Source of the DNA: Streptomyces sp. NBC_01476
GTDB taxonomy: Bacteria > Actinomycetota > Actinomycetes > Streptomycetales > Streptomycetaceae
Direction of reading: 5' to 3'
Assembly (NCBI RefSeq): GCF_036227265.1
Contig: NZ_CP109446.1
Span: 1,215,501 to 1,279,500 of the forward strand
DNA length: 64,000 bases
The notes beneath the pieces were generated by a model. That model ran no database searches. It was not told the DNA's origin and saw only the letters and a list, made by a program, of their open reading frames with translations. Shown piece after piece: positions 23,078 to 41,578 of this stretch. Every line of letters begins with the position of its first letter. Within the stretch, counting starts at the first letter, position 1. The translations under genes were made by a program, and so were the position numbers.

Positions 23078-23200
23078 GATCGCGGCCTTCCTGCAGGTGG
23101 AGAGGTGGTGAAGCCGACGGTACCCCGAGTTGGCTCCAGGGTGGGTCGCGGGGATGCAAAGCGTCCCTCCTGTCCCCACCAGCACCCCGCCGCCCCAGCG

Positions 23201-23457
23201 CACACGGAACGGGCCCGGACACCCTTCGGGCCGACCTGGGACCCTCCCCCAGACTCCGTCCGGGGGCACCCCCAGCTGCGAGCCCACACCCCACCCGCCC
23301 CACCACACACGGAACGGGCCCGGACACCCTTCGGGCCGACCTGGGACCCTCCCCCAGACTCCGTCCGGGGGCACCCCCAGCTGCGAGCCCACACCCCACC
23401 CGCCCCACCACACACGGAACGGGCCCGGACACCCTTCGGGCCGACCTGGGACCCGCT
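23201..23457. repeat. 105-bp tandem repeat, about 2.5 copies
   Basis: CACACGGAAC begins at 23201, 23306 and 23411, an exact 105-base period. Copies one and two are near identical over the full unit; the third stops matching near 23457. Each unit includes CCTCCCCCAGACTCCG followed by CGGGGGCACCCCCAG, a GC-rich inverted repeat typical of streptomycete intergenic sequence elements. Because 105 is divisible by three, the reverse frame remains open and encodes repeated 35-residue blocks, but the composition suggests non-coding DNA. Confidence 0.9.
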
Positions 23458-39179: not shown

Positions 39180-40319
39180 TCAACCGGGAAGAATCACCAG
39201 GTCACGCCCGGTCAGATTGAGTCGCTCACCGCCCTCGTCGGTACAGACGGCGATGTCCTCGATCCGGGCGCCGAAGGTGCCGGGGAGATAGATCCCGGGT
39301 TCGACGGAGAAGGCCATGCCCGGCTCCAGCGGGCGGGCGCTGCCGGCCACGATGTACGGCTCCTCGTGCGTCTCCATGCCGATGCCGTGGCCGGTGCGGT
39401 GGATGAAGTGCTCGCCGTAGCCCGCACGGGTGATGATGTCGCGGCCCACCGCGTCGAGTTCCTCGGCGGTGACGCCGGGCCGGACCGCGTCGGTCTGCGC
39501 GGTCTGGGCGCGCAGCAGCACGTCGTAGAGCTCGCGGAAGGCGGCGGGCGGCTCGCCCACGGCATAGGTGCGGGTGGAGTCCGAGCAGTAGCCCTCGGCG
39601 GTGGTGCCGCCGATGTCGACCACCACCGGGTCCCCGGCCCTGATCACCCGGTCGGAGACCTCGTGGTGCGGGCTGGCGCCGTTGGGTCCCGACCCGACGA
39701 TCACGAAGTCCACGGTGGCGTGGCCGGCCGCGATGATGGCGTCGGCGATGTCCTTGGCGACCTCGCGCTCGGTGCGGCCGGGCTTGAGCCACTCGCCGAT
39801 CCGGCGGTGCACCCGGTCGATGGCCGCGCCGGCCCGGCGCAGGGCGGCCACTTCGGCGGGCGTCTTGCGCATCCGCAGGCCGGAGAGCACGTCGCCGGCC
39901 AGCACGGCCTGGGCGCCGGGCAGTGCGGCCTGGAAGGCGAGCAGTTTCTCCGCCCACATGTGGTTGTCCACCGCGAAGAGGCGGGTGTTCGGCGGGAGGC
40001 GGCGGGCGATCAGCTCGTACGCGTCGTCCGTCTCGCCGAACCCGGTGATCTCGATGCCGAGCGCGCCGGCCGGGGACGCCTCGGCGGCGGCCTTCTCCAG
40101 TGCGGGCACCACGAGGAACGGGTCCGCCTCGGCCGGTACGACCAGGCAGGTGAGCCGCTCCAGCGGGAGGGCGTGGTATCCGGTCAGATAGCGCAGGTCG
40201 GCGCCGGGCGCCACCAGCAGCGCGTCGAGCCCCGCCTTTCCGGCGGCCCGCCGTGCGAGCGCCACCCGCTCCGACGAGAACAGTTCCCCAACGCCTTCAC
40301 TTCCACTCACGCCCTCCAC
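39180..40319 (-). CDS. M24 family aminopeptidase P-like (Xaa-Pro) peptidase
   Basis: Metal-dependent peptidase that removes an N-terminal residue preceding proline. 379 residues: an N-terminal creatinase-like domain (about 1-150) and a C-terminal pita-bread domain with metal ligands Asp in VVDIGGTT and Asp in CSDSTRTY, His in RTGHGIGMETHEEP, Glu in FSVEPGIY and Glu in ARIEDI. The GTG at 40319 is used; a second GTG at 40310 directly after GGAGGGC is an alternative. It is encoded head to tail with the secreted peptidase but has no signal peptide. The upstream gap holds the inverted-repeat array. Confidence 0.88.
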   Translation of the reverse strand: MEGVSGSEGVGELFSSERVALARRAAGKAGLDALLVAPGADLRYLTGYHALPLERLTCLVVPAEADPFLVVPALEKAAAEASPAGALGIEITGFGETDDAYELIARRLPPNTRLFAVDNHMWAEKLLAFQAALPGAQAVLAGDVLSGLRMRKTPAEVAALRRAGAAIDRVHRRIGEWLKPGRTEREVAKDIADAIIAAGHATVDFVIVGSGPNGASPHHEVSDRVIRAGDPVVVDIGGTTAEGYCSDSTRTYAVGEPPAAFRELYDVLLRAQTAQTDAVRPGVTAEELDAVGRDIITRAGYGEHFIHRTGHGIGMETHEEPYIVAGSARPLEPGMAFSVEPGIYLPGTFGARIEDIAVCTDEGGERLNLTGRDLVILPG

Positions 40320-40355
40320 GTTACCGGTCCCCTCGCGGTCAGCGGTGCCCTACCA

Positions 40356-40838
40356 GGGGCGCGAGGAACTGCGCGACCAGCCACGACGCCGCCGTACCCC
40401 GCCACCGGCGCAAAGGGGCAGTCGCTGTCGTGTCCGGACCACCGGCCGGTGGGTGGTTGCTCGCGCAGTTCCCCGCGCCCCCATGGGGCGAGCCACTCCG
40501 CGAAGAGAACCCGCGCCCCGAAGGGGCGCGAGGAACTGCGCGACCAGCCACGACGCCGCCGCACCCCGCCACCGGCGCAAAGGGGCAGTCGCTGTCGTGT
40601 CCGGACCACCGGCCGGTGGGTGGTTGCCCGCGCAGTTCCCCGCGCCCCCATGGGGCGAGCCACTCCGCGAAGAGAACCCGCGCCCCGAAGGGGCGCGAGG
40701 AACTGCGCGAACGGCCACGACAGGGCCGCACTCCGTCACCGGCCGAGAGGGGCTGTCGCTGTCGTGTCCGGACCACCGGCCGGTGGCCGGTTGCCCGCGC
40801 AGTTCCTCGCGCCCCTGGTGGGGCACCCCGTGCCGGGA
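40356..40838. repeat. 167-bp tandem array of inverted-repeat elements
   Basis: GGGGCGCGAGGAACTGCGCG starts at 40356, 40523 and 40690, an exact 167-base period. Copies one and two are almost identical; copy three has diverged in its middle. Within each unit the opening CGCGAGGAACTGCGCG pairs with CGCGCAGTTCCCCGCG near base 115, so every unit can fold into a long hairpin. Similar GGAACTGCGCGACCAGCC elements are scattered in streptomycete intergenic DNA. A REP- or MITE-like nature is inferred. Confidence 0.85.
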
Positions 40839-40918
40839 AGGCGCCCCGCGCCCCTGGTAGGGCACCCCGTGCCGGGAAGGCACCCCGCGGCCCTGGTAGG
40901 GCACCCCCGTGCCGGGAG
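40813..40918. repeat. 39-bp tandem repeat, about 2.7 copies
   Basis: CCCTGGTGGGGCACCCCGTG begins at 40813, and CCCTGGTAGGGCACC at 40852 and 40891, an exact 39-base period. Each has GGGGCACCCCGTGCCGGGA, a short imperfect palindrome. It directly follows the 167-bp array and runs into the promoter of the next gene. Confidence 0.85.
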
Positions 40919-40950
40919 GGGGACGCCGGGCGGGGTCGGGGTGGGTGGCA

Positions 40951-40956
40951 TACGCT
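40951..40956 (+). promoter_or_regulatory. -10-like box TACGCT, leaderless start of kinase-like gene
   Basis: TACGCT lies seven bases before the ATG at 40964 and no Shine-Dalgarno is present between them. It matches the pattern at 29644-29649 exactly. Confidence 0.4.
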
Positions 40957-40963
40957 CGGCCGC

Positions 40964-41578
40964 ATGGGCGACCTCACGCTGCCGCGGCTTGCCGCACTGC
41001 TCCCCACGCTCGCACCCTCGTGCGGCCCCGTGCGGCTCGTGGCCGTGGACGGGCACGCCGGGTCGGGGAAAACGACGTTCGCCGCCCGGCTGGCCGCGGA
41101 GCTGGGCGGCGCCCCCACCGTGCACACCGACGACCTCGCCACGCACGAGCAGCCGTTCGACTGGACCGACCGCCTCACCGAACAGGTACTGACCCCACTG
41201 GCCGAAGGCCGCCCCGCCCGCCATCAGGTGTACGACTGGGTGGCCCGCCGGTTCGCCGGCGAAGAGGAGGTGCCGCCCGCGCCCGTGGTCCTGCTGGAAG
41301 GCGTCGGCACCGGCCGCCTCGCCGTACGCCCGCACCTCGCGCTCCTGCTGTGGCTGGAGGTGGACCCCGGCACCGCGCGCCGGCGGGGACTGCGGCGCGA
41401 CGGCCCGCAGCTCGCGCACTTCTGGACCGGCTGGACCCGCGACGAGGACGCGCACTTCACCGCCGACCCGTCCCGGCCCTTCGCGGACCTGCTGGTTCAC
41501 CAGACCTCCGACGGCTACCGGGCCGAAACAGGAGGGGCGGTACGGACGGTTCCCACCGTACGAGGTCACCGTACGTAG
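40964..41578 (+). CDS. Uridine kinase-like P-loop protein
   Basis: A 204-residue nucleoside/phosphate kinase-like protein with a full Walker A, VDGHAGSGKTTFAARL near residues 28-43, the motif TDDLATHE in place of the substrate-binding aspartate region, VVLLEGVGTGR, and LWLEVDPGTARRRGLRRDG near the LID. The C-terminus is variable. Unlike the gene at 10121 it keeps the P-loop lysine, so it should bind ATP. Its substrate cannot be deduced. The ATG at 40964 is the first start after the TANNNT box, and the P-loop follows at the expected distance. Confidence 0.75.
   Translation: MGDLTLPRLAALLPTLAPSCGPVRLVAVDGHAGSGKTTFAARLAAELGGAPTVHTDDLATHEQPFDWTDRLTEQVLTPLAEGRPARHQVYDWVARRFAGEEEVPPAPVVLLEGVGTGRLAVRPHLALLLWLEVDPGTARRRGLRRDGPQLAHFWTGWTRDEDAHFTADPSRPFADLLVHQTSDGYRAETGGAVRTVPTVRGHRT

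Follow-up and report, generated by a model that had tools for sequence, protein, structure and literature searches.

The window analyzed in this study, a 64,000-nucleotide stretch of the Streptomyces sp. NBC_01476 genome, carries a tandem array of hairpin-forming repeats in the spacer between a gene for an M24 metallopeptidase / creatinase-N protein and a gene for a uridine-kinase-like P-loop protein (Table 1). A TACGCT sequence (a TANNNT box) is located at 40951-40956, 7 nt upstream of the kinase ATG, and similar boxes are readable upstream of the kinase gene in several orthologues; if such boxes act as leaderless promoters, the array would fall outside both transcripts.

The preliminary description of this DNA had reported three copies with an exact 167-bp period, two of them near identical, and this was borne out. 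A repeat search delineated three head-to-tail units of 167 nt each (starts at 40355, 40522 and 40689, spacings of 167 and 167, total span 40355-40855) with 100, 99 and 77% identity to copy 1, and TRF returned 40355-40815 with a period of 167, 2.8 copies and a score of 810, the top of 28 rows for the window. Each unit is composed of a 126-bp inverted doublet (two 20-bp arms with 86 bp inside) and a 41-bp linker. The arms are GGGGCGCGRGGAACTGCGCG and its reverse complement, as had been stated, with the exception of the right arm of copy 3, which reads CGCGCAGTTCCTCGCG. Between copies 1 and 2 there are 2 differences in 167 positions (40395 and 40461, T/C in each case), and between copies 2 and 3 there are 37; the suggested recent amplification is therefore supported for copies 1 and 2 only. 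Outside the units, the left extension GGTGCCCTACCA is for the most part complementary to the right outer flank, and the cluster therefore lies within a longer palindrome.

Table 1. Coordinates of the array, its parts and the neighboring genes (positions in the window)
Feature	Position	Strand	Remarks
M24 metallopeptidase / creatinase-N protein, left neighbor	39180-40319	-	Transcribed outward from the array; start at 40319 or at a more internal codon
Left outer extension GGTGCCCTACCA	40344-40355		Largely complementary to the right outer flank (inverted repeats)
Doublet 1	40356-40481	+	Arms 40356-40375 and 40462-40481, 86 bp inside
Linker 1	40482-40522		41 bp; 3' end GCGCCCCGAA able to pair with GGGGCGC of the next arm
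Doublet 2	40523-40648	+	98.4% identity to doublet 1
Linker 2	40649-40689		Identical to linker 1
Doublet 3	40690-40815	+	87-89% identity to doublets 1 and 2; 20-bp arms perfectly complementary
Three 39-bp repeats	40805-40921		Arm end plus outer flank each; 100/92/74%
Uridine-kinase-like P-loop protein, right neighbor	40964-41578	+	PRK model, 23.4 bits (cut-off 22); reads away from the array

The proposed hairpin folding of the copies was upheld. Folded as single-stranded DNA, the three 126-nt doublets gave z-scores of -4.75, -3.75 and -7.13 against 200 dinucleotide shuffles each, with 0 of 200 shuffles as stable for each of the three. Folded as RNA, the 521-nt stretch 40340-40860 gave a z-score of -13.2 against 100 shuffles.

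An intergenic doublet with near-fixed spacing

The array belongs to a dispersed, REP-like intergenic element, as had been anticipated. A genome-wide census found the exact 20-mer arm in 126 copies (55 and 71 by strand) and the reversed control in none. With up to 2 mismatches allowed, stretches fetched around the matches (431,927 bases of the 8.40 Mb genome, covering 120 of the 126 exact arms) contained 66 clusters with a total of 132 arms, none of which was located more than 30 bp inside an open reading frame predicted by a rough in-house gene caller. Counting plain arms together with those split by a mini-hairpin (loose criterion for the split form), these stretches held 164 arms, among which 29 doublets were recognized. 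The repeat unit is thus inverted and double, with 86 bp inside in 25 of the 29 cases, 87 in three and 85 in one; further bins of spacing examined in the range 60 to 124 gave four pairs in one bin (76-83) and none in six. No partner at the doublet spacing accompanied 106 of the 164 arms, and therefore the doublet is only a presumed unit of spread.

Arms are often in tandem. Within the fetched stretches, 12 of the 29 doublets were grouped into five tandem clusters, the window array and four others, so that the preliminary view of a tight tandem array as unusual was not sustained; ordered tandem clusters are also the commonest higher-order REPIN arrangement in Pseudomonas fluorescens SBW25 (PMC3116915). 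The first two window copies are the most similar pair compared (98.4%, with 88-96% in the other clusters), and the 163 pairs of doublets from different loci of this genome had a mean identity of 83.7% and a maximum of 96.0%. Head-to-tail arrays of single arms were detected as well, for example a run near 1.884 Mb in which five arms follow one another every 74 bp.

Along the genome, 31 of the 66 arm clusters are located within 0.64 Mb (4.96-5.60 Mb). Among the first 100 of the 126 places in position order, the window array is the leftmost copy and the initial 1.256 Mb (1-1255855) is free of exact arms, this left boundary having been set post hoc by the outermost match. At the outer arm edge, CCCCGAA stands directly 5' of 27 of the 132 arms, giving a CCCC-GAA-GGGG mini-hairpin, with AAA the next most frequent (12). 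Whether C(GNA)G triloops are generally enriched among perfect intergenic hairpins was considered as well; the signal was weak (8 GAA, 5 GCA and 4 GGA of 162), and no general claim is therefore made; GAA, GCA and GGA triloops are absent from the listed top 15 for 264 perfect genic hairpins.

An alignment of long elements took in 28 of 32, leaving out four with a spacing of 145-153; the invariance of its arms is partly a product of selection, the arms having been chosen at up to 4 mismatches. Across the 126-bp doublet in these 28 sequences, pair covariation contributed a term of -0.04 in -59.06 kcal/mol, and within the 20-bp arms only one pair varies (columns 9-134), being broken in 6 of 28. Because most arm pairs never vary, doublet covariation is uninformative.

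A second mini-hairpin, of approximately 31 nt, occurs at one exact point in about a fifth of the arms, giving a split form that reads GGGGCGC, then the insert, then GGAACTGCGCG. With 1 mismatch allowed, the mini-hairpin CCCCCGGACGNAGTCTGGGGG has 46 copies in the genome, compared with 0 for the control, and directly adjoins the inner arm part in 27 of the 30 copies with loci given; a wider set of 40 distinct copies (42 rows, up to 3 mismatches) shows this adjacency too, with those three copies as the only exceptions. Twelve of the 29 doublets have one split arm, with the spacing kept, and none has two. The split pattern was found in 17 of 394 genomes of the family, the sole match in one of them (G250) being a join of two arms.

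The stem of this mini-hairpin differs between species with its pairing mostly kept. Across 25 distinct 48-nt rows, 98.2% of stem cells pair, and the pair at columns 23-29 is CG in 14 rows, AU in 5, GC in 4 and other in 2. The covariation score was 0.215, compared with 0.119 in shuffles (0 of 500 as high) and at most 0.080 when slid; the single pair changed on both sides (496 of 500 shuffles) and the eight further pair types (384 of 500) were not above shuffles. With eight further distinct 48-nt rows added (n = 33), some of them out of register through a tetraloop or a shifted stem, 279 of 297 cells pair and the 23-29 pair is CG in 15, GC in 6, AT in 5 and other in 7. Outside both counts stand the other-length rows from G004, G005, G009, G026, G032 and G120, some other-length rows of G003, G016, G203, G269, G323 and G324, three two-arm joins (G028, G203, G250) and two shortened inserts (G028, G269). 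With one pair, three pair types and related rows, the covariation may be considered suggestive and is no proof.

Of the 25 rows, 24 have GAA or GGA in the mini-hairpin loop, and GNA loops give unusually stable DNA minihairpins. Additionally, a separate 105-bp tandem repeat in the window (23183-23454; 2.6 copies, 97%) carries the mini-hairpin TCCCCCAGACTCCGTCCGGGGGCACCCCCAG in units 1 and 2; its absence from unit 3 supports the mini-hairpin being a separate module.

Distribution, turnover and the search for a transposase

Arms are patchy among species. Exact arms are present in 230 of 394 Streptomycetaceae genomes and absent from 164, and among 393 genomes of the class they were found in 26, namely 26 of the 44 from this family and 0 of the 349 others. 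Within the genus, which is most likely Actinacidiphila, since several loci are identical to named records mostly of that genus, 25 of 35 genomes carry exact arms, at 0 to 478 per genome. Diverged arms were rejected as the main cause of the ten arm-free genomes, where a few hidden copies may exist: at up to 3 mismatches these genomes gave 21 to 50 matches compared with 16 to 30 in the reversed control, each being 1.1- to 2.5-fold above its own control (e.g., 24/18, 43/30, 32/18, 50/20).

The presence of arms also differs at orthologous spacers of related species. When 100 kb of A. bryophytorum (G004, so named from its match to a named record) were compared with A. paucisporea (G011) and with 32 kb of A. 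cocklensis (G005), elements were present, absent or different at eight orthologous spacers. Filled and nearly empty sites included a spacer of 445 bp with three arms vs. one of 7 bp, at apparent converging stop codons, 377 vs. 12 bp, and a reverse case of 40 vs. 398 bp, from which it follows that copies of the element come and go. Because the flanking alignments are only 76-94% identical, exact insertion points are unreadable, and some of the empty sites could be deletions. The element also contributes to differences in intergenic DNA among close species.

The kinase gene provided a comparison of array size at the locus itself, with a kinase match in every one of 34 genus genomes (in 32 at 65% identity or higher). 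Among the 30 kinase loci compared, four have arms in the spacer; the three-doublet array is found in the NBC_01476 genome only, with a single doublet in G028, one arm in G001 and two arms in G022. A phage or plasmid vehicle is not favored, with no match among 50,697 phage records and 3 matches among 72,556 plasmid records, all from Streptomyces and each covering 33% of the query.

RAYT transposases are the common explanation for REP-type palindromic repeats, and both REPINs and BIMEs are tied to them (PMC2817692, PMC3116915). A matching transposase did not materialize here: the Y1_Tnp model (PF01797), a single Pfam model that is blind to a diverged RAYT, gave 0 matches in the NBC_01476 genome, and it did give matches in 5 of 14 control genomes. 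In the genus, Y1_Tnp matches were found in 7 of 35 genomes, six of these without an exact arm, which leaves 1 of 25 arm-bearing genomes with a match; the two features are anticorrelated (Fisher p 0.0008, relatedness ignored). RAYT-driven spread is therefore unsupported for this genome. The word mobile in the preliminary description holds for the turnover between related species and not for a mobilizing enzyme, none having been found with this model. One genus genome without an exact arm (G014) has 18 Y1_Tnp matches, several of them partial.

The anatomy is REPIN-like. As in the REPINs of Pseudomonas and other bacteria described in PMC3116915, there are inverted doublets with a spacer that fold into hairpins, singlets beside doublets, an extragenic location and ordered tandem clusters of units that are near-identical including their flanks. 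The Streptomycetaceae element differs from those REPINs in its 20-bp arms and 86-bp spacer, in arms that can be interrupted by a second mini-hairpin, in being found only in Streptomycetaceae among the genomes sampled, and in the missing Y1_Tnp/RAYT match of this genome, together with the anticorrelation in the genus. With the BIME/REP systems treated in PMC2817692 it shares palindromic units, alternating orientation and a tandem basic module, and the window and the four other clusters display the BIME-2 trait of a tandem array of alternating palindromic units with linkers; those systems carry a RAYT, whereas this genome has no RAYT match. The REPs listed there mostly start with GTAG and some with TGTGGGAGC, whereas a GTAG is not conserved next to the present arms: within 15 nt outside the arm, GTAG occurs on the arm strand at 0 of 132 arms and its complement CTAC at 8 of 132, the window cluster being among the latter (40350, 40857, 40896). 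Dispersed intergenic stem-loop repeats are also a feature of the Bor, Ype and Efa families, which are reported for Bordetella, Yersinia and Enterococcus; in the text of that source (PMC1590033), "Streptomyces" occurs once, in the reference list only. Overall, the element resembles a REPIN in its anatomy, its position outside genes and its high copy number; because no match to the defining RAYT partner was found in this genome, it is not filed as a REPIN member. A search of the open-access literature, with text that included arm and mini-hairpin pieces, gave no recognizable description of it; as most subscription journals lie outside that scope, the family is not thereby established as unreported.

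Explanations for the array

We consider it probable that the three units form a cluster of a hairpin repeat of Streptomycetaceae that is REPIN/BIME-like and non-autonomous and is copied by something other than a Y1/RAYT transposase, and that this cluster was extended by local tandem duplication and is probably tolerated. Doublets or arms would be copied to new intergenic sites by a machinery that reads the hairpin or the doublet. At the window site, one doublet with its 41-bp linker would have undergone tandem duplication, either through slippage or through unequal exchange involving the repeats, the latest such event giving copies 1 and 2. The cluster would be flanked by two divergent promoters, would belong to neither predicted transcript and would probably be tolerated rather than needed.

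A more far-reaching version of this explanation is tentative, and we regard it as somewhat doubtful. The element would be a RAYT-less REPIN-like system, served by a hairpin-reading machinery and parasitized by the ~31-nt mini-hairpin, which would enter arms at one exact position. Inside each genome the mini-hairpin would be homogenized, and from one species to the next it would be replaced, its stem staying mostly paired; this would suggest that what is copied is a folded single strand. Since a repeat with REPIN-like anatomy occurs in 230 of 394 sampled genomes of a family in which many antibiotics are made, and is anticorrelated with RAYT in the one genus tested, the question of what copies it becomes testable by comparing arm-rich and arm-free sister species.

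Among the alternatives, a functional RNA or terminator family, whose hairpins would end or stabilize transcripts and would have multiplied as useful at gene ends, is unlikely. The strong folds and the mostly kept pairing of the mini-hairpin stem between species are in its favor. Additionally, the 63 element regions (42 co-directional, 15 convergent and 6 divergent), compared with 148 spacers of at least 60 bp without arms (89, 24 and 35), are rarer in divergent spacers (6/63 vs. 35/148, p 0.02), as this alternative would have it; however, the enrichment in convergent spacers is not significant (15/63 vs. 24/148, p 0.24), the window array lies between two divergent starts, and 164 of the 394 family genomes are without an exact copy. 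No T-run follows the window doublets or arms, where CATGGGG or TGGTGGG is found instead. As to an RNA product, which had been proposed as a check, 40200-41100 gave nothing above the gathering cut-off in Rfam and five matches at E up to 1, all to miRNA models and far below the cut-off (e.g., 32.2 of 196 bits).

A MITE-like element derived from an ordinary DDE insertion sequence, with the arms serving as terminal inverted repeats for movement, is improbable. Inverted ends and near-fixed spacing would suit such an origin, but most arms are unpaired (106 of 164) and no target-site duplication was seen by eye at the eight orthologous spacers, although the flanks there have diverged too far for a firm reading. 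Protein-binding or chromosome-architecture sites kept by selection, by analogy with E. coli BIMEs as gyrase or IHF sites, appear more improbable still: arms that are similar in sequence across genera and the arm-free first 1.256 Mb (among the first 100 of 126 places) would be consistent with such a role, but 10 of 35 genus species have no exact arm and the positions differ between related species. Finally, an assembly artefact is hardly credible, a simple assembly duplication being unlikely in a one-contig genome with copies that are distinguished at 2 and 37 of 167 positions and with similar clusters elsewhere.
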